DNA of 64,000 bases, from contig NZ_CP035282.1 in the NCBI RefSeq assembly GCF_004103715.1, forward strand, positions 3,372,501-3,436,500, read 5' to 3'. This DNA comes from Acidilutibacter cellobiosedens (GTDB lineage Bacteria > Bacillota > Clostridia > Tissierellales > Acidilutibacteraceae). Below the pieces are notes generated by a model. The model searched no databases, had not been told where the DNA came from, and worked only from the letters and a program-made list of their open reading frames with translations. This document shows, piece by piece, positions 11,826-57,917 of this stretch (the first letter of the stretch is position 1; each line of letters opens with the position of its first letter). Position numbers and translations under genes: made by a program.

Positions 11826-13658
11826 ATCGAGTAGGGGAAATTTAATTTCCCCTCTCACACCACCGTACGTACGGTTCCGTATACGGCGGTTCAATTAAAT
11901 CTAACATTACGCCTGTGTTCATAGTAGTCTAAAGGACTTACTAAACCTCTTTTGGTTAAAATCTCCTTTGAGATTGCTCTTGATACACAGGTTTTTGTCG
12001 CTACAAAATAGTACCTATCTCCACAGTATGAGGTCAATCTTGCTAAGTCTTTACTAATCCCTAACTTTTGTAATCCCCATTGTCTTTTTGATGGTACTTT
12101 CCACATCTTCCAGATTATCATTCTAAGTCTTGTTCTAAGTCTTGAGTCTATTTCTGTAAGTGTCCCTTTCATGGAACCTATCAGGAAATAGTTTATCCAT
12201 CCTCTTATCACTTGATTTAATTTCTTTAGTCGTTCTGTAAAGCTAATAGACCATTTCCTTTGCGTCAGATTTTTAAGTTTATTTTTAAAACTTTTAATGG
12301 AATCTTGATGAGGTCGTGCTTTCCATTGCTTAACTCTTCCATCTTTCCAAAATCCAAAGCCTAGATATTTCAGATTAGTTGGTCTTGTTATTCTACTTTT
12401 TGATGAATTAACTTTTAGACCTAATTTTCTTTCAATCCAACTGGTAACAGAATCCATTACTCTTTTTGCTGATGCCTTGCTTTTTACTGTTATGATACAA
12501 TCATCTGCGTAACGGACAAAGTTTAGTCCACGGCTTTCTAGTTCTTTATCAAGTTCATTTAGCATAATGTTGCTAAGAAGGGGTGATAAATTTCCTCCCT
12601 GTGGTGTTCCTCTTTTTGATGGCTGATATTCACCTTTATCCATTATTCCCGCTTGAAGGAACTTTCGAATTAGTGACTCGGTATCGGGGTCGTCTATGAT
12701 ACTGTGTACTAGACTCATTAGTTTGTCTTGTGGAACTGTATCAAAGAACTTTTCCAAATCAATGTCTACAACCCAGAGGTATCCATCATTAAAATATTCC
12801 AGTAGTTTTACTACAGCCATTTCACAGTTTCTACTCGGTCTAAATCCATAGCTGAATTCTGAGAATTCCTTATCTACTATAGGGCTTAATACCTGTACTA
12901 TTGCCTGTTGTATTATTCTATCCATGACTGTAGGTATTCCTAGCTTTCTAGTGCCACCATTAGGTTTTGGAATTTCTACTCTTAAGACTGGTTGTGGTTT
13001 GTAACTTCTTTCTTCTATCTCAACTTTAATCCTTGACCAACTTTCTCTAATGTATCCATCAATTCCATCGATGGTTATCCCATCAATTCCACTTGCCCCT
13101 TTATTTGAGCTTACGCTTTTAAGTGCTTGATACATATTTTGTCGGTCTAGAATTTTGTCTAGTAATTTTGTCATAATGTGCATTCTACTCCTTTTCGCTT
13201 ACTTGGAAATATCTTAATTTCGTGACCTTGGGCTCCTTTTACGTTTTCACCTGTATCAATCAGACTATTCAAGCTACATCCATTTTGTATTGTGCTCTTT
13301 AATTGTTCAGTCCTTCACTAAAAAAAAACTTAGCTACTATGACCTCTGCTGACTTCTCATGATTAGTTGTTACTATTGTAGCGCTCATGAGACCTCACGG
13401 GTTAAGCCATATATCTTTCCTCGTTTACTTGCAGGATTTACGCATTAGGATTACGATTACCTTTTGGACTTCGTTGTCTTTAGCCAACTTATCCACCTAA
13501 CTCGCCTTGTATCCTGTTTCTGTTCGTCAAGCCACGATTTCGCTATTGCTTCCTCTCTCCCACACCTCACGATGTGAAACTTGCAAGTTGCTATCGGGTT
13601 CGTCGGTAACTACGCCCCTTAGGACTTTCACCTTAGACATATGACATGCCCGTCAAAC
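11826..13658 (-). mobile_element. Group IIC intron, full length
   Basis: Read on the minus strand, the intron starts GTTTGACGGGCATGTC at 13658 and ends ...CTACTCGAT at 11826, about 1833 bases. Domain V is visible as a 34-base hairpin (minus strand 11889-11850, GAACCGCCG ... GGTGG), followed by domain VI with a GGGGAAA/TTTCCCC stem. The start of domain I has GGTGAAAGTCC as in other IIC introns. The ends are set by comparison with the second copy, whose empty site exists at 56068/56071. It lies directly after a hairpin with a T-run (13666-13689, minus strand reading CCAGCTAG...CTAGCTGG then T7), the known target of IIC introns. Confidence 0.88.
11891..13183 (-). CDS. ltrA: Group II intron reverse transcriptase/maturase
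   Basis: ATG at 13183 has AAAAGGAG upstream. The 430-residue protein has the RT fingers and palm (RKLGIPTVMDRIIQQAI, GFRPSRNCEMAV, DIDLEKFFDTV, GTPQGGNLSPLLSNI, FVRYADDCIITV with the catalytic YADD), then the maturase/thumb domain X (about residues 290-370, including LNQVIRGWINYF). No HNH endonuclease domain follows, as is normal for class C introns. The protein assists splicing of the intron and its spread by target-primed reverse transcription. It is intact and could also serve the deleted intron at 56369-57674 in trans. Confidence 0.92.
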   Translation of the reverse strand: MHIMTKLLDKILDRQNMYQALKSVSSNKGASGIDGITIDGIDGYIRESWSRIKVEIEERSYKPQPVLRVEIPKPNGGTRKLGIPTVMDRIIQQAIVQVLSPIVDKEFSEFSYGFRPSRNCEMAVVKLLEYFNDGYLWVVDIDLEKFFDTVPQDKLMSLVHSIIDDPDTESLIRKFLQAGIMDKGEYQPSKRGTPQGGNLSPLLSNIMLNELDKELESRGLNFVRYADDCIITVKSKASAKRVMDSVTSWIERKLGLKVNSSKSRITRPTNLKYLGFGFWKDGRVKQWKARPHQDSIKSFKNKLKNLTQRKWSISFTERLKKLNQVIRGWINYFLIGSMKGTLTEIDSRLRTRLRMIIWKMWKVPSKRQWGLQKLGISKDLARLTSYCGDRYYFVATKTCVSRAISKEILTKRGLVSPLDYYEHRRNVRFN

Positions 13659-50066: not shown

Positions 50067-51023
50067 CTATCCCTCTTTAGTTGAATCAGATAACAACAGT
50101 TGGTATTTTTTTTGATAAGCAGGGATATCAGCAATATCACAATAGACATAATGCCCGGGAATTATTTCACGAAGTTGGCTCGTTTCTGTTTGTACCAAAT
50201 TGTTAAAAACAATACGATTTCGTTGCCGTTCATAATCCGGATCCGGCAGCGGTATAGCCGACAGAAGGCTTTCCGTATACGGATGCAATGGAAATTGATA
50301 GATCTCCTTTGCATTTCCAAGCTCTACAAGTTTACCTTGATACATAACACCTATACGATTACTGATATATTTTACCATAGATAAATCATGAGCTATAAAC
50401 AAATAAGTCAAGTGTTTTTCTTTCTGCAATTTTTTCAGCAGATTTACGATTTGTGCCTGTATTGATACATCCAAAGCCGATATAGGTTCGTCACATATAA
50501 TAAATTTAGGCCGTACCGATAATGCTCTGGCAATTCCTATTCTCTGTCGTTGTCCTCCCGACAATTCATGAGGATATCTATTTGCATGATCAGAATTTAA
50601 GCCAACAGTCATAAGTAATTCATTGACTTGTTCATCGCAGTCATCTTTATTCTTTGATAATCCATGGACTTTAATTCCTTCAGCAATAATATCCCTTACC
50701 TTTTTTCGTGGATTGAGAGATGCGTAAGGGTCCTGATATATCATTTGTACATCACGTCGAAACTGAAGCCAATCTTTCTTGCTATGGATTGTAGAAAGAT
50801 CAACACCGTTAAAATAAATCTTACCGGAGGTCGGTCTATATAATTGTATAATAGTTCTGCCTGTTGTTGATTTTCCACACCCTGATTCCCCGACTAAACC
50901 AAAAGTCTCACCTTCAAATATATTAAAACTAATATTATCCACTGCTTTTACAATATTATTACCATTGGACCTGAAATACTCTTTCAATTTTTCAACTCGT
51001 AAAATTTCATTGTTAGTATTCAT
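50067..51023 (-). CDS. oppF: Oligopeptide ABC transporter ATP-binding protein OppF
   Basis: 318 residues with Walker A GLVGESGCGKSTTG, Q-loop QMIYQDPYASLNPR, signature ELSGGQRQRIGIARAL, Walker B FIICDEPISALDVS and a C-terminal peptide-type extension (HPYTESLLSAIPLPDPD). One of two ATPases of the opp operon, 4 bases after OppD. Confidence 0.92.
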   Translation of the reverse strand: MNTNNEILRVEKLKEYFRSNGNNIVKAVDNISFNIFEGETFGLVGESGCGKSTTGRTIIQLYRPTSGKIYFNGVDLSTIHSKKDWLQFRRDVQMIYQDPYASLNPRKKVRDIIAEGIKVHGLSKNKDDCDEQVNELLMTVGLNSDHANRYPHELSGGQRQRIGIARALSVRPKFIICDEPISALDVSIQAQIVNLLKKLQKEKHLTYLFIAHDLSMVKYISNRIGVMYQGKLVELGNAKEIYQFPLHPYTESLLSAIPLPDPDYERQRNRIVFNNLVQTETSQLREIIPGHYVYCDIADIPAYQKKYQLLLSDSTKEG

Positions 51024-51027
51024 TTTG

Positions 51028-52086
51028 TTAACCCCTCTTATCTTTAAAACTTTGTTTTTTAAATTTAAAATACTGCTGACGAGCTACAATAGATTGAGGA
51101 ATCTTTATTTCAGGAGCCCGTGAATCCAAAAGCCATGTTGAAGCATAATGAGTTTGAGATATTTTAAACATCGGCGGTTCATAATACGCATCAACGGTTA
51201 AAGCATACTGATTTCGCTGCGCAAAAATATCTCCCTGAGGAGGATCCAACAGATCTGGCGGACTTCCAGGAATAGCATACAAGCTATCCTCCTCGTTATC
51301 CAATGTCGGCATTGAACGCAGCAATCCCCAAGTATACGGATGTTGAGGATTATAAAATATTTCATCAACAGTTCCTATTTCCACAATCTTACCTCCATAC
51401 ATTACGGCAACTCTGTCTGCAATATTAGCAACTACCCCTAAATCATGAGTAACAAATATTATTGAAGTCGCTACTTTCTTTTGAATACTCTTCATCAAGT
51501 CTAAAATCTCAGCCTGAATAGTCACATCCAGAGCAGTGGTCGGTTCATCTGCAATTAATATCTTAGGATTGCAAGCTAATGCGATAGCAATTACAATACG
51601 TTGTCGTTGCCCTCCGGAGAACTGATGAGGATAATATTTTAAACGCTTTTCGGGTTCAGGAATATCTACTAACCGAAACAATTCCAATGCTTTTTTCATA
51701 GCTTCCGATTTACTCAATTTTTGATGTAAAATAACAGGCTCTGCTACCTGTTTACCAACAGTCATAGTTGGATTTAAAGAAGTCATCGGGTCTTGAAAAA
51801 CCATTGCTATTTCTTTTCCGCGAATATTCTGCATCTCTTTATTGGTCTTTGATAATAAATCCTTTCCGTCAAAAATTATTTGCCCGCAATCAATACTGCC
51901 ATTTTTTGAAAGCAATCCCATAATGCTTCTGCATGTCACGGATTTTCCCGAACCGGATTCTCCCACAAGAGCCAAAGTTTCTCCTTTATTCAATGTTAAA
52001 GATACCCCTCTTACGGCTTGTACTTTCCCTGCATATGTTTGAAACGAAACATGCAAATTATTAATTTCTAATATTTTTTCACTCAT
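51028..52086 (-). CDS. oppD: Oligopeptide ABC transporter ATP-binding protein OppD
   Basis: 352 residues: Walker A ALVGESGSGKSVTC, AMVFQDPMTSLNPT, signature FSGGQRQRIVIAIAL, ILIADEPTTALDVTIQ and the C-terminal HPYTWGLLRSMPTL extension. ATG has GGAGGGTTAAG upstream. Confidence 0.92.
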   Translation of the reverse strand: MSEKILEINNLHVSFQTYAGKVQAVRGVSLTLNKGETLALVGESGSGKSVTCRSIMGLLSKNGSIDCGQIIFDGKDLLSKTNKEMQNIRGKEIAMVFQDPMTSLNPTMTVGKQVAEPVILHQKLSKSEAMKKALELFRLVDIPEPEKRLKYYPHQFSGGQRQRIVIAIALACNPKILIADEPTTALDVTIQAEILDLMKSIQKKVATSIIFVTHDLGVVANIADRVAVMYGGKIVEIGTVDEIFYNPQHPYTWGLLRSMPTLDNEEDSLYAIPGSPPDLLDPPQGDIFAQRNQYALTVDAYYEPPMFKISQTHYASTWLLDSRAPEIKIPQSIVARQQYFKFKKQSFKDKRG

Positions 52087-52096
52087 CTTAACCCTC

Positions 52097-53152
52097 CTAA
52101 TCTTTCATCCTCGGATCAAATGCATCACGGAGCCCATCCGCCAACAAATTAAATGTAATCATGATTATGCAAATAGCAGCAGCAGGAAACCACATAAGAT
52201 GAGGCAAAAATCTAAATGTCTTATATCCTTCATTTAGCAATGTTCCCAATGATGCATTGGGAGCACGCATTCCAACCCCAATAAAGCTCAGAAAAGCCTC
52301 AAAAAAAATTGCACTGGGAATAGTAAACATTGTCTGAACTATAATAATGCCACTCAAATTCGGCAAAATATGACTGACTGCAATATTTAAATATGATTCC
52401 CCAAGGGTCCTGGCAGCAAGCACAAACTCCTGATCTTTTAATTTCAATGTTTCGGCACGGACAACTCGAGCCATTGTAATCCAGCCTGTTAAACCCATGG
52501 CAACAATAATGGAAGTCACTCCCGGTCTAATAAATAAAAGCATCAGTATCACCACGACCAACGTGGGAATTCCGGAGATTATTTCCAAAATACGCTGCAT
52601 GATTATATCCACACTATCACCTTTCCATCCCGAAACCAATCCATATGTTATTCCTATTAACAAATCAAAAAAAGCCGCAGCTAAAGCGATAAGCAATGAA
52701 ATCCGTGTTCCTGCCAATACCCGGGATAATAAATCTCTGCCAAAAGCATCTGTTCCGAAATAATAATTGACATCATGAGGAACATGGGCAAGTTCATATT
52801 TATCAACCCATTCTCCCGATATCTTGGCCTTCCCGTTAAACCCGTTAATATTAACGTGAGGAATACGGGGAGGTAAATTAGCATGAGGAACATTTTGTAA
52901 ATTGGGATCATGAGGGGTATACCATATAGAAACAATTTCAATTGATATAATCAGCAATAAAATAACCATTGAAACCACAGCCGCTTTATTTTTTCTCAGA
53001 CGTCGCCATCCGTCCTGATAAAACGACAAGGATGGTGCAGCTATACGCTCATTGTCAAAGTGATAAGTTTCATCTAACGGCGTAAAATATGATGACGGAA
53101 TTTCGGAATATAAATTTTTATTTTCATCTTTTTTATCTATTAGTTCATCCAT
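52097..53152 (-). CDS. oppC: Oligopeptide ABC transporter permease OppC
   Basis: 351 residues, N-terminal extension then six membrane segments; the permease motif is LAARTLGESYLNIAVSHILP. ATG overlaps the OppB stop by one base (TAATG). Confidence 0.9.
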   Translation of the reverse strand: MDELIDKKDENKNLYSEIPSSYFTPLDETYHFDNERIAAPSLSFYQDGWRRLRKNKAAVVSMVILLLIISIEIVSIWYTPHDPNLQNVPHANLPPRIPHVNINGFNGKAKISGEWVDKYELAHVPHDVNYYFGTDAFGRDLLSRVLAGTRISLLIALAAAFFDLLIGITYGLVSGWKGDSVDIIMQRILEIISGIPTLVVVILMLLFIRPGVTSIIVAMGLTGWITMARVVRAETLKLKDQEFVLAARTLGESYLNIAVSHILPNLSGIIIVQTMFTIPSAIFFEAFLSFIGVGMRAPNASLGTLLNEGYKTFRFLPHLMWFPAAAICIIMITFNLLADGLRDAFDPRMKD

Positions 53153-54093
53153 TAGTATTCTCCCCCTCCTACTCTGATTCGAGGATCAACAATTCCATAC
53201 AGAATATCCACCAATAAAATTATAGTAACAAGCAATGTGGAATAAAGCATGGTTACCGCCATAATTGTAGAATAATCATTGGTCATAATGGACTTAACAA
53301 ACTGTTCTCCGATGCCCGGAATAGCAAAAATATTTTCAACTACCAACGACCCGGTCATCAAACTTACAGACATAGGTCCCAATATTGTAATCAATGGAAT
53401 TAAGGCATTTCTTAACCCATGTTTGAAGGCAACTCTCCATTCACTCATCCCTTTCGCCCTTGCCAACTCAATATAATCACTATTCAATACTTCAATCATT
53501 TCAGTACGAATAAAACGAGCAGAATCTGCCATCGGTGAAATGGACAAAGCAACAGTCGGCAGAACCGTTGATAAAAATCCTTCGTTCCATAAAGCAATGG
53601 GAAACCACTTTAAATATACGGCAAACAAAAGCTGCAGAAGAACCGCAAATACAAAATTGGGAACAGATCGTCCGATAATAGCCGACAAAGATGCAATCCC
53701 ATCTATAAAGCTGTTTTGAAACATAGCTGCAACCGTCCCTAAAATAATTCCTACGGTAGTTCCCAAAATCATGGCTTGTGCCCCTAATTGAAGTGACGGA
53801 CCAATGCGTTTAGCCAATATGGACTTGACCGGTTGGTCGCCAAACTGTAGCGAAATGCCAAAATCTCCTCGAACCGCACCGGACATATAAATTATATAAC
53901 GTTTCACCAAAGGTTTATTTAATCCATATCTTTTATTCATAATTTCCCGTTGCTTATTTGTTAACTTTGCTTCATTGTTATAGGGAGTTCCCGGCAAAAA
54001 ATTCATCAGCAAAAACGTACACGAACTAATAAGAAAAAGTGTTATCAGCATATAAACTACCCTTTTTAAAATAAATCTGAAAAAATTACTCAT
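53152..54093 (-). CDS. oppB: Oligopeptide ABC transporter permease OppB
   Basis: ATG 54093 (MSNFFRFILKRV) with GAAAGGTG upstream rather than GTG 54105. Six membrane segments; permease motif IELARAKGMSEWRVAFKHGL. Ends in the OppC start. Confidence 0.9.
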   Translation of the reverse strand: MSNFFRFILKRVVYMLITLFLISSCTFLLMNFLPGTPYNNEAKLTNKQREIMNKRYGLNKPLVKRYIIYMSGAVRGDFGISLQFGDQPVKSILAKRIGPSLQLGAQAMILGTTVGIILGTVAAMFQNSFIDGIASLSAIIGRSVPNFVFAVLLQLLFAVYLKWFPIALWNEGFLSTVLPTVALSISPMADSARFIRTEMIEVLNSDYIELARAKGMSEWRVAFKHGLRNALIPLITILGPMSVSLMTGSLVVENIFAIPGIGEQFVKSIMTNDYSTIMAVTMLYSTLLVTIILLVDILYGIVDPRIRVGGGEY

Positions 54094-54140
54094 ATTTATC
54101 TGCACCTTTCTTTTTGTTGTTATTTCATATTTCTAAAGTT

Positions 54141-54197: not shown

Positions 54198-55870
54198 TTA
54201 TTTAACAATATAAGCATGGGTAATCTCTAATGGAGTACCTAAGTTGTGAGTAACGATTCCTTTAACCTTTGGGTTTATCAAATAACTTGACGCTCCCTGG
54301 TATAAAGGAGCAACAACTGCCTTACTCAAAATATATTTCTGTGCCTCCTGCAAATCCTTCCATCTTTTTTGAGGATCTGTTGAATCATCAGTTTTAATCT
54401 TTGTAATTAGCGCGTCATATTTGGAGTCTTTATACTGCCCGTGATTATGTTCATATGTTGAGAAAAACAGATTCAAGTAACTAACCGGATCAAAATCTCC
54501 GGTCCAACCGCCGAGAGCCAAATCAAAATTATAAGCCATCATCTTTTCAAAACGAACTTTTGCGGGAACATTGCTCAAATTAATAGTCAGTCCCGATAAA
54601 TTAGTCTCTAATTGACTTTGCAAATATTCCCCGTTCTTTTGGCTCCTTCCGTATCACTGGTGATTAACGTCAATTCAACTTTTTCCACTCCCAATTCGCT
54701 TTTAGCCTTTTCCCACAGTTTTTTCGCTTCCTCAACATCCGTTTTTACCAAGACACCTGCTTCATCCGAAAAATCCTTCCCTGTATCTGGATTCGTCGCA
54801 ATTCCTTTAGGAATAATTCCCGTTAAAGGTCTTGAGCCATCGACAAGTATGTTGTTTACCAACTCATCTCTATTGATTGCCAGTGAAATTGCCTTTCTGA
54901 AATTTTCATTTTGCAGAGTGGGGCTTGAACTTATGCCAAATTCAAGATTAGAATCTGTCAGAGTAAGTACCGAAAGAAAGTCATCATTATTTATATACTG
55001 ACTGATATAATCTCCAGATAAAGATGTAGCGTCAATAGCTCCTGATTCGTACAGATTAATTCCAGTTCCCGTTTCTTTAACAACCTGAATATTGATTTTA
55101 TTAAGTTTTATATTATCCTTATCCCAATAATTTTCATTCCTTTGATAATTCCATGTAAGACCTGTACCATCCCAGTCTTTCAGGACAAAGGGGCCATTTC
55201 CTAAAGTATTTTCACTTGTTGTTCCGTATGCTTCCCCCTTAGATGTTGCAAATGCTTCATTCTGAGGAAATAAATTTACAGATGATAATGAAGATGTAAA
55301 ATACGTATCCGGATATTCAAGGGTTACTTTGAGTTCCGTATCACTGACGGCTTCAACTCCTAATTCCGAAGGATCTTTTGTCCCTTCATTAATTGCTTTG
55401 GCATTCTTTATGTTGAAAAATGTACTTGCGCTTTGGGCCGCCGTTTCCGGTGCAAATAACCGTCTCCATGCAAAAACATAGTCTTTAGCGGTCAATGGAT
55501 CTCCGTTTGCCCATTTCAAATTATCCTTAAGTTTAATAGTGTACACCAAACCGTCTTCACTGATTTGAGGATCCCCTTCTGCCTCTACTGGAACGGTTTT
55601 ATTATCTCCGTCAATTTTATATAAACCTTCTGCAAATATTTCAATTTGGGAAGAACTCAATGTATCATAAGATTTAACAGAATCTGCAGTAGGCAATTCA
55701 CTTGAAATAACCCAGTTCAATTCTTGCTTGTCAGCCAATTTTTCAGCAGAATCAGAAGATTTTTCACCGGATTCGGGTACACTTTCTTCCTTTGAAGTTT
55801 CTTTTGAGCAACCTGCAAACATTAAAGCCAATACCAATATCAATAAAATTAATCTTATTCTATTTTTCAT
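54198..55870 (-). pseudogene. oppA: oppA oligopeptide-binding lipoprotein, single frameshift
   Basis: ATG 55870 (GGAGAG upstream) begins MKNRIRLILLILVLALMFAG with the lipobox Cys23, a lipoprotein signal. The SBP_bac_5 domain is clear: DEAF-type LYKIDGDNKTVPVEAEGD, KDNLKWANGDPLTAKDYVFA, ENTLGNGPFVLKDWDGTG. At the CCCC run 54629-54632 (G4 on the coding strand) the frame slips: residues TEGAKRTG are followed by a quick stop at 54608, while the other frame continues from EYLQSQLETNLSGL to the natural end at 54198. One extra G would restore the gene. It may be a real mutation or a homopolymer sequencing error. Confidence 0.85.
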
Positions 55871-56020
55871 GCTTATCTCTCCTTTTATTATTAAATTACT
55901 GTGAATAATTTTTCTTATAATATCGTTACAACATATTTTTATCATCCCCTTTATTAACACGAAAGCACACCTATAAGTCATAGGAAAACTTAATGTAAAC
56001 TTAACCTTAAATAGGTTTTC

Positions 56021-56066
56021 AAAAAAGGCCGCTTCAATTTATTAGTACTTCAATAAAAGCCTTTTT
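56021..56066 (-). promoter_or_regulatory. Second leader hairpin, opp-proximal copy
   Basis: AAAAAAGGC... (56021-56035) with ...GCCTTTTTC (56055-56066), a GC-tipped stem with a T-run on the minus strand. It lies between the proximal riboswitch and oppA. The same hairpin is found at 56318-56363. Confidence 0.6.
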
Positions 56067-56072
56067 CACAAT

Positions 56073-56241
56073 TAAAAACCTACTTTCTTAATAAGAAAGC
56101 AGGTTAATAATCTAACTGGCATGCTTTCTTATCTCTCAAACCATCATGGTTTGCAGGATTTGGCACCTTTAAATAATATACTTTCATATTATTCAGGCTG
56201 CCGGGCTTCATCGGGCCAGTCCCTCTGCCTCTCTCGATAAG
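56073..56241 (-). promoter_or_regulatory. SAM-I riboswitch, oppA-proximal copy
   Basis: On the minus strand P1 runs from CTTATC (56241-56236) to GATAAG (56133-56128). Between them are the SAM-I landmarks GAGGGACTGGCCC, GATGAAGCCCGGCAGCC, AAGGTGCCAAATCC and a GTTTGAGAG P4 end. A terminator follows (AACCTGCTTTCTT / AAGAAAGTAGGTT, 56105-56077) with a U-run, and P1 3' sequence AGAAAGCA can pair with TGCTTTCT as antiterminator. It should shut off opp when SAM is high. Confidence 0.9.
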
Positions 56242-56317
56242 AATCAAAATTAACTTTTCATAACCCATAGGAAAATCCTATTTTACCTTAACGTAAACTT
56301 AACCTTAAATTAGTTTC

Positions 56318-56363
56318 AAAAAAGGCCGCTTCAATTTATTAGTACTTCAATAGAAGCCTTTTT
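56318..56363 (-). promoter_or_regulatory. Second leader hairpin, distal copy
   Basis: AAAAAAGGCCGCTTC (56318-56332) with GAAGCCTTTTT (56353-56363), between the intron end and the proximal riboswitch. Same hairpin as 56021-56066. Confidence 0.6.
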
Positions 56364-56368
56364 CACAA

Positions 56369-57674
56369 ATCGAGTAGGGCAAAATAAATTGCCCTCTCAC
56401 ACCACCGTACATACGGTTCCGTATATGGCGGTTCAATTAAATCTAACATTACGCCTGTGCTCATAGTAATCTAATGGACTGATTAATCCTCTTTGGGTTA
56501 ATATAGCCTTAGAAATTGCTCTTGATACACAAGTTTTTGTTGCTACAAAATAGTACCTGTCTCCGCAATATGAGGTTAATCTTGCTAGGTCCTTGTTAAC
56601 TCCTAACTTTTGTAATCCCCATTGCCTTTTTGATGGCCGATATTCACCTTTGTCCATTATTCCTGCTTGAAGAAACTTTCGGATTAATGACTCAGTGTCA
56701 GGATCATTTATGATATTGTGTACCAAACTCATCAGTTTGTCTTGCGGAACAGTATCAAAAAATTTTTCCAGGTCAATATCTACTACCCATAGATACCCAT
56801 CGTTAAAATATTCCAGTAGTTTTACTACCGCCATTTCACAGTTCCTGCCTGGTCTATATCCATAACTGGTTCCTGAGAATTCTTTTTCTGCAATAGGACT
56901 TAAGACTTGCACTATTGCCTGTTGTATTATCCTATCCATGGCTGTAGGTATTCCTAACTTTCTGGTACCTCCATTAGGTTTTGGAATTTCTACTCTTAAA
57001 ACTGGTTGTGGTCTGTAACTTCTTTCCTCTATCTCGACTTTAATTCTTTGCCAATTTTCTCTAATATATCCGTCAATTTCATTGATAGTTATTCCATCAA
57101 CTCCACTTGCGCCTTTGTTTGAACATACACTTCTAAAGGCTTGATACATATTTTGTCTGTCCAGAATTTTGTCCAGTAAAGTTGTCATAATGTGCATTCT
57201 ACTCCCTTTTCGCTAGCTTGGAAATCGCCTTAATTTATTGACCTTGGATTCCTTTTACGTTTTCACCTGTATCAATCAGACTATCCACGCTACATCCATT
57301 TTGTATTGTGCTTTTTAATTGTTTAGTCCTTCGCCAAAACTTATTTAGCTACTATGACCTCTGCTGACTTCTCATGATTCGTTGTTACTACTGTATCGCT
57401 CGTGAGACCTCACGGGTTAATCCATATATCTTTCCTCGTTTACTTGCAGAATTTACGCTTTAGGGTTACGGTTACCTTTTTGGACTTTATTGTCTTAAGC
57501 CAACTTATCCGCCTTTCACGCCTTATATTCTGTTTCTGTTCGTCAAGCCACGATTTCGCTATTGCTTCCTCTCTCCCACACCTCACGATGTGAAACTTGC
57601 AAGTCGCTATCGGGTTCGTTGGTAACTACGCCCCTTTGGACTTTCACCTTAGATATATGACATGCCCGTCAAAC
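56369..57674 (-). mobile_element. Group IIC intron, internally deleted copy
   Basis: Starts GTTTGACGGGCATG at 57674 and ends CTCGAT at 56369 on the minus strand, 1306 bases. The duplicated leader supplies an empty site (CACAA then TTAAAAACC at 56064-56077), which fixes both ends. Domain V (minus strand 56432-56393) and VI are intact. Relative to 11826-13658 it lacks 528 bases between two TCTTTTTGATGG copies. It sits immediately behind the terminator of the distal riboswitch (57677-57709). Confidence 0.9.
56433..57197 (-). pseudogene. ltrA: Intron reverse transcriptase lacking its catalytic region
   Basis: 254 residues in one frame. It matches the intact copy up to GIMDKGEYRPSKR, then jumps to QWGLQKLGVNKDLARL. 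The missing 176 residues include GTPQGGNLSP, YADD and the maturase domain X. The join is at the 12-bp direct repeat TCTTTTTGATGG seen twice in the full intron (12083-12094 and 12611-12622). The product cannot reverse-transcribe and probably cannot help splicing. Confidence 0.9.
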
Positions 57675-57676
57675 TT

Positions 57677-57844
57677 AAAAAACCTACTTTCTTAATAAGA
57701 AAGTAGGTTAATAATCTAACTGGCATACTTTCTTATCTCTCAAACCATCATGGTTTGCAGGATTTGGCACCTTTAAATAATATATTCTATATTATTCAGG
57801 CTGCCGGGCTTCATCGGGCCAGTCCCTCTGCCTCTCTCGATAAG
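57677..57844 (-). promoter_or_regulatory. SAM-I riboswitch, distal copy
   Basis: Same landmarks as the proximal copy; aptamer 57844-57732 on the minus strand, terminator AACCTACTTTCTT / AAGAAAGTAGGTT (57709-57681) with a U6 run. P1 3' AGAAAGTA pairs with TACTTTCT for antitermination; the proximal copy has AGAAAGCA and TGCTTTCT, a compensatory change. A TTGACA/TATACT promoter lies 45 bases upstream. Confidence 0.92.
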
Positions 57845-57888
57845 AATTGTTTGTAAAACATATAAACTTGATTTTTTATATTGTGTTT

Positions 57889-57917
57889 AGTATACATTGG
57901 AATTAATAAAATGTCAA
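57889..57917 (-). promoter_or_regulatory. SigA promoter of the opp riboswitch leader
   Basis: TTGACA (57917-57912), 17 bases, TATACT (57894-57889) on the minus strand. Full consensus -35; start expected near 57882. Confidence 0.88.

Follow-up and report, generated by a model that had tools for sequence, protein, structure and literature searches.

Two SAM-I riboswitches separated by a group II intron upstream of an opp operon in Acidilutibacter cellobiosedens

Layout of the opp leader

The stretch of DNA analysed in this study (hereafter, the window) comprises 64,000 nucleotides of Acidilutibacter cellobiosedens contig NZ_CP035282.1 (positions 3,372,501 to 3,436,500). On its minus strand, a pair of SAM-I riboswitches is located upstream of a peptide-transporter (opp) operon, and a group II intron lies between the two copies. 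The order of the elements on this strand is promoter, aptamer 1, terminator 1, intron, L1, aptamer 2, terminator 2, L2 and oppA-oppB-oppC-oppD-oppF, where L1 and L2 are copies of a repeat sequence referred to as L. The features are listed below in this order, all on the minus strand (-).

57889..57917 (-): putative sigma-70-type promoter (TTGACA, 17-nt spacer, TATACT), 5' of copy 1
57730..57846 (-): SAM-I aptamer copy 1 (RF00162, 97.4 bits, positions 1-108 of 108)
57726..57734 (-): antiterminator 5' arm of copy 1 (AAGAAAGTA; 3' strand of P1 plus an extension)
57697-57705 (-): antiterminator 3' arm of copy 1 (TACTTTCTT; the 5' side of terminator 1)
57681..57709 (-): intrinsic terminator 1 (hairpin, -14.9 kcal/mol)
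56369..57674 (-): group IIC-type intron, 1306 nt, 5' GTTTGAC ... 3' CTACTCGAT, recognised by ribozyme matches, flanks and placement
56433..57197 (-): intron-encoded protein, 254 aa, with a large in-frame internal deletion
56255..56365 (-): L1, a copy of a genome-wide repeat of ~107 bp, with a terminator-like hairpin (ends approximate)
56126..56243 (-): SAM-I aptamer copy 2 (RF00162, 97.1 bits, positions 1-108 of 108)
56122..56130 (-): antiterminator 5' arm of copy 2 (AAGAAAGCA)
56093-56101 (-): antiterminator 3' arm of copy 2 (TGCTTTCTT; the 5' side of terminator 2)
56077..56105 (-): intrinsic terminator 2 (hairpin, -14.9 kcal/mol)
55958..56068 (-): L2, the second repeat copy, 3' of terminator 2 (ends approximate)
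54198..55869 (-): gene for an oppA-type substrate-binding protein, with a frameshift near 54,610-54,625
50067..54105 (-): oppB, oppC, oppD and oppF, each an open frame

The original prediction described the interval 56073-57844 as tandem SAM-I riboswitches; most of this interval is occupied by the group II intron (56369-57674), and it also includes the duplicated repeat, neither of which had been mentioned. The genome is a single contig of 3.74 Mb and contains five RF00162 matches. The three located outside this leader precede metK, an amidohydrolase gene and a MetN-like gene (MetN is the top-scoring family for this gene, yet scores below the curated cut-off).

A consensus scan identified the sequence upstream of copy 1 (57917-57889) as the highest-scoring promoter of the region and the sole strong one, with 11 of 12 consensus positions matched. 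A weak match (9/12) was also found just before oppA (55945-55917). The location of promoters bears on the possibility that copy 2 and the opp genes are transcribed from a start within the intron or L1, in which case the two switches would act in parallel rather than in series. Group IIC-attC introns were reportedly found in one study to carry outward-facing promoters, and the intron contains one minus-strand match of 9/12 (57224-57196). However, this match sits just 5' of the start codon of the intron protein, promoter-like matches in the region are close in number to chance expectation (11 observed versus 7.5 expected, both strands), and the scan detected no minus-strand match in L1. We therefore regard separate transcription units as very improbable. 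A transcription start between the two copies, which the original prediction had named as an observation that would speak against it, likewise appears unlikely as judged by the consensus scan alone.

Two SAM-I switches and a compensated base pair

Both aptamers score far above the gathering cut-off of RF00162 (44.4 bits), and each is followed by its own antiterminator and terminator, the latter consisting in both copies of a 13-bp hairpin and a T-tract. The two riboswitches that had been predicted are thus real, and the antiterminator pairings quoted for them are exact. In both copies, terminator and antiterminator are predicted to be mutually exclusive and to be coupled via P1. One antiterminator pair and a small indel in the P3 loop are the only differences between the copies from the start of the aptamer to the terminator stem; the T-tracts of the two terminators differ by one T.

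The difference in the antiterminator is a compensated change from T-A to C-G. The terminator hairpin is equally stable after this change, because its 3' side tolerates a G-U pair. According to energy calculations for the two possible intermediates, C against A costs 3.5 kcal/mol and U against G costs nothing, and the order in which the two base changes occurred is therefore constrained. In a random-substitution test, the probability of obtaining a compensated antiterminator pair ranged from 0.0002 (2 substitutions) to 0.003 (6 substitutions), and that of a compensated pair in any helix from 0.0014 (2 substitutions) to 0.021 (6 substitutions). The original prediction had concluded from this covariation that both copies are kept working. 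The compensated pair in copy 2 is indeed exact, but the covariation consists of one pair in two sequences. Because the compensation represents a single event, it supports, without proving, the view that the switch of copy 2 has remained functional.

The pairing energies of the antiterminator arms in the two copies are -12.9 and -14.9 kcal/mol, and none of 300 shuffled sequences paired as well for either copy. When 16 SAM-I leaders were compared in this manner (shuffles preserving base composition only; L155, which is nearly identical to L154, was omitted), the antiterminator pairing was better than that of the shuffles at the 5% level in 13, including both copies in the window. Those failing this level were the metK leader of the same genome (0.43), the upstream copy of L150 (0.10) and L153 (0.053). 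The arm of copy 2 pairs less stably with terminator 1 than with its own terminator (-5.8 versus -9.7 kcal/mol), and that of copy 1 pairs equally with both (-7.7 kcal/mol). The P3 loop of copy 2 (56179-56185, minus strand) contains GAAAGTA, which is identical to seven bases of the copy 1 antiterminator arm and complementary to the 5' side of terminator 1. This heptamer is absent from the P3 loop of copy 1, and its occurrence in copy 2 may be due to chance in AT-rich sequence.

The group II intron, the L repeat and the opp genes

The 5' end of the intron is located 2 nt beyond the T-tract of terminator 1. When the intron flanks are joined, they reproduce the uninterrupted junction of copy 2 except for three one-base differences, which concern the compensated base, a single T in the T-tract and a C/T change. 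The second SAM-I copy thus keeps the empty site, by which both boundaries of the intron are fixed, and the arrangement suggests that the intron may have been inserted after the duplication. Like the two switches, their terminators and the compensated pair, these boundaries and the repeat can be established directly from the DNA. The ribozyme core matched RF02001 and RF01998 of Rfam (118.8 and 56.6 bits). Domain V scored 37.9 bits with RF00029, below the cut-off of 40, and its stem has an A opposite a C at a position where a sibling intron has G-C. The usual 5' end is GUGYG, whereas GTTTG or GTATG is found in the introns described here.

The sibling intron is located in the same window (13658 to 11826, minus strand), is 88% identical to the intron of the leader and encodes a 430-aa reverse transcriptase (11891-13183). 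As in group IIC introns, this protein has the reverse transcriptase (RVT_1) and maturase (GIIM) domains and no endonuclease match. The protein encoded by the intron of the leader differs from those of group IIC introns in its internal deletion: it lacks the YADD stretch, approximately half of RVT_1 and all of GIIM. Judging from its sequence, the intron at 56369-57674 is a deletion derivative. The sibling intron (11826-13658) also directly follows a terminator and is a possible source of a splicing protein acting in trans.

A search with the 5' part of the intron yielded 11 matches, corresponding to nine introns (two here and seven in five relatives) and, since the flanks of L198 and L199 are identical, to eight distinct sites. 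In all nine introns inspected, the 5' end immediately follows a terminator-like hairpin that has a T-rich tail. This placement agrees with the target documented for group IIC (class C) introns, which is the position after intrinsic terminators, as far as described in the available part of the source (PMC4424553). Rfam scans of six other intron sites (L191, L192, L193, L197, L198 and that of the second intron of the window) detected no riboswitch match.

Because aptamer and ribozyme adjoin on one strand, SAM-controlled splicing of the intron by the aptamer may come to mind. We rejected such ligand-controlled splicing as a candidate, because a complete terminator/antiterminator separates the aptamer from the intron. 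In addition, the placement behind a hairpin is shared by 9 of 9 introns, and the six other scanned sites have no riboswitch. A published case in which a SAM-I aptamer adjoins a group IIC intron was explained, in the accessible part of that paper, as a terminator-targeting insertion, a functional partnership being dismissed there because the terminator is intact (PMC9481103). SAM-controlled splicing at the present locus is thus extremely improbable. The locus resembles this published case, as far as it is described in that part, in that the intron has been placed behind an uninterrupted riboswitch terminator via terminator targeting, but differs in that a downstream SAM-I copy preserves the empty site (PMC9481103).

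In one block, the two repeat copies are identical at 54 of 55 nt; L1 and L2 are 86% identical over a further 37 nt and 71 to 74% identical across a 38-nt stretch. The duplicated unit therefore includes L. The repeat is ~107 bp in length and has two hairpins, and no Rfam family reached its cut-off for L in the scan of the window. With a 412-nt query, at least 53 matches were found in the window's genome, of which at least 49 are located at other places in this genome and map to the L part (lower bounds, 40 of 127 first-look candidates having been scored). Several matches form near-identical head-to-tail arrays with a period of ~102 bp, such as G000:C1:672916-673332. L is matched at E <= 0.001 in 14 of the 60 genomes from the order, that of the window included, with many matches being partial. 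The repeat alignment comprised 27 loci, of which about ten were wrongly oriented, and the consensus was read from the rest. The terminator-like hairpins in L1 and L2 have predicted energies of -9.6 and -11.1 kcal/mol. Strong read-through to copy 2 and opp is genuinely hard to reconcile with these hairpins, which, if active as terminators, could disconnect both from the upstream promoter.

The word 'tandem' in the original prediction thus requires qualification. Two complete switches are indeed present in one leader, but they are separated by a 1.3-kb intron and by L1 with its terminator-like hairpin, so that the tandem is present in no transcript other than a long or a spliced one.

The oppA gene consists of two overlapping frames (54608-55981 and 54198-54623). 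The regulated gene may therefore be dead, unless the frameshift is due to a sequencing error; either a real pseudogene or such an error is possible. The nearest OppA relative found (82% identity) is encoded as a single 578-aa frame at L070, on a contig labelled Gorillibacterium timonense. The best OppA match listed among 59 same-order relatives shows 40% identity versus the 82% at L070, which points to possible horizontal transfer.

No Rfam match was obtained by cmscan in the 11-kb L070 locus. SAM-I was likewise found at none of 79 named oppA loci searched up to 5 kb on each side (the distinct loci kept from 237 relatives, some of which have short upstream flanks, only 547 bases in L148), and at none of nine relatives' oppA loci searched 1.5 kb on each side. 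The search model recovered all 14 full aptamers in the window and ten tandem loci, several of which are in its training set. The association of SAM-I with oppA is therefore private to the window's genome, as far as seen.

At L070, the first gene of the operon encodes an amidohydrolase and lies directly 5' of oppA, with cystathionine beta-synthase-like and gamma-synthase/lyase-like genes beside it. The window's genome encodes a homologue of this amidohydrolase (64% identity) downstream of another SAM-I (L160), and the amidohydrolase downstream of a SAM-I tandem in a relative (L149) is 52% identical to this homologue. These links make it plausible that a pathway of peptide uptake and hydrolysis would be under SAM control. 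The amidohydrolase frame at L160 (1709-2623, plus strand) encodes 304 aa, compared with 399 and 412 aa in relatives, and looks cut short. Since oppA and this gene both look shortened, sequencing errors may be behind them.

Several of these features would also fit a decaying locus, in which only copy 1 or neither copy matters, the switch has been uncoupled from opp by the duplication, the intron and the L hairpins, and the compensated pair is a remnant or has arisen by coincidence. The frameshift in oppA, the internal deletion in the intron protein, the mismatch in domain V, the additional terminator-like hairpins in L1 and L2 and the lack of SAM-I at the other oppA loci examined are all consistent with decay. 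However, both aptamers retain full scores, the compensated antiterminator pair would arise by chance with a probability of only 0.0002 to 0.003, and oppB, oppC, oppD and oppF are all open frames. On balance, decay of the locus appears unlikely.

SAM-I pairs in relatives and the proposed origin of the leader

The original prediction had proposed a comparison with tandem copies in relatives. We searched 59 relatives of the same order, none belonging to the same genus or family, and found two RF00162 matches within 300 bases in at least 10 of them (counts of pairs and of the variant loci described below are lower bounds, as stricter filters lose weak matches). Full SAM-I/SAM-I tandems with two terminators are present in two relatives: the L149 tandem precedes the amidohydrolase gene, which is followed by a MetN-like gene, and the L150 tandem precedes a methylenetetrahydrofolate reductase gene.

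In eight other pairs, the upstream member is weak (43.7 to 50.7 bits, one below the cut-off) and lacks the P4 helix. Seven of these pairs precede a metY-like gene (assigned by family match in L151 and L154, and from the start of the coding sequence by eye in the five others), which in L154 is followed by a MetA-like gene; the pair in L153 precedes a MetN-like gene. The core of this SAM-I-like variant reads TTAGGGTAGAGA.TTAGCTC..GACCCTA.ACCAACC..AAGGTGGTTCTGCTAA, and its loci are as follows.

L151 2920-3011 (-): P4-less variant upstream of normal SAM-I
L152 1898-1989: P4-less variant upstream of normal SAM-I
L153 2935-3027 (-): P4-less variant upstream of normal SAM-I
L154 1738-1831: P4-less variant upstream of normal SAM-I
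L155 1613-1706: P4-less variant upstream of normal SAM-I
L156 1781-1870: P4-less variant upstream of normal SAM-I
L157 2441-2529 (-): P4-less variant upstream of normal SAM-I
L158 1827-1919: P4-less variant upstream of normal SAM-I
L184-L189: P4-less variant standing alone

When the first eight variants were used to build a model, it matched at least 14 loci in at least 13 of the 59 relatives at E < 1e-9, those eight included. Eight of the loci are directly 5' of a normal SAM-I and six stand alone, the weakest matches (L188 and L189) scoring about 50 bits. Three of the six lone variants (L185, L187 and L188) precede similar-looking small proteins (MNTSGVIRGYMSKNM-like) of unassigned function. 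The variant model detected no such element in the window's genome. The P4-less variant possibly has an altered ligand; spermidine variants of SAM-I have been published, with 13 examples from other genera in the available part of the source (PMC10853860).

The arrangement in the window has a counterpart in double SAM-I leaders, of which 164 examples have been published and which are predicted to be pseudo-cooperative, according to the accessible part of that work (PMC9481103). As in the leaders described there, two complete OFF switches with separate expression platforms are present in one leader. Unlike those, as far as that part describes them, the copies here are near-identical paralogues whose antiterminators differ by a compensated pair, and a group II intron and a repeat with an additional terminator-like hairpin lie between them (PMC9481103). 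In the open-licence literature searched, we did not find a SAM-I tandem split by a group IIC intron, although the combination follows from known parts and is ordinary in kind.

We consider it likely that the leader consists of two SAM OFF switches in series behind one strong promoter, which originated from a tandem duplication and were later interrupted by a group IIC intron. The unit of aptamer, terminator and L would have been duplicated in tandem, perhaps via whatever amplifies the L arrays, and the intron would then have been inserted just beyond terminator 1. Transcription would start from the single promoter upstream of copy 1. At high SAM, P1 would be held closed, so that terminator 1 would form and the transcript would end before the intron. 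At low SAM, the freed 3' strand of P1 would pair with the 5' side of the terminator, allowing read-through of the intron and L1. Copy 2 would repeat the same decision, and the two would operate as pseudo-cooperative OFF switches. If the intron is spliced out, the two switches would again form an uninterrupted tandem. The parts of this scheme that we infer are SAM binding, termination, splicing, the succession of events and the control of opp. A steeper response, one of the two outcomes proposed in the original prediction, is a possible result of this arrangement.

An extended reading, which we regard as quite improbable, is that expression of the intron is gated by copy 1. With its 5' end 2 nt beyond a terminator under SAM control, the intron would be transcribed, spliced and mobilisable in trans by the protein of the intact sibling only when SAM is low, and splicing would rebuild a two-step switch whose antiterminators are starting to diverge.

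The locus may be regarded as a natural record of the origin of a tandem riboswitch, in which a duplication, the pre-insertion site in the sister copy, a compensated pair and a terminator-seeking intron are all preserved. Since the terminators of riboswitches serve group IIC introns as landing sites, a riboswitch and a ribozyme that lie adjacent need not be functional partners. If control in series is true, the opp leader of A. cellobiosedens would add another example to the pseudo-cooperative SAM-I leaders, its intron being a candidate for SAM-gated expression.
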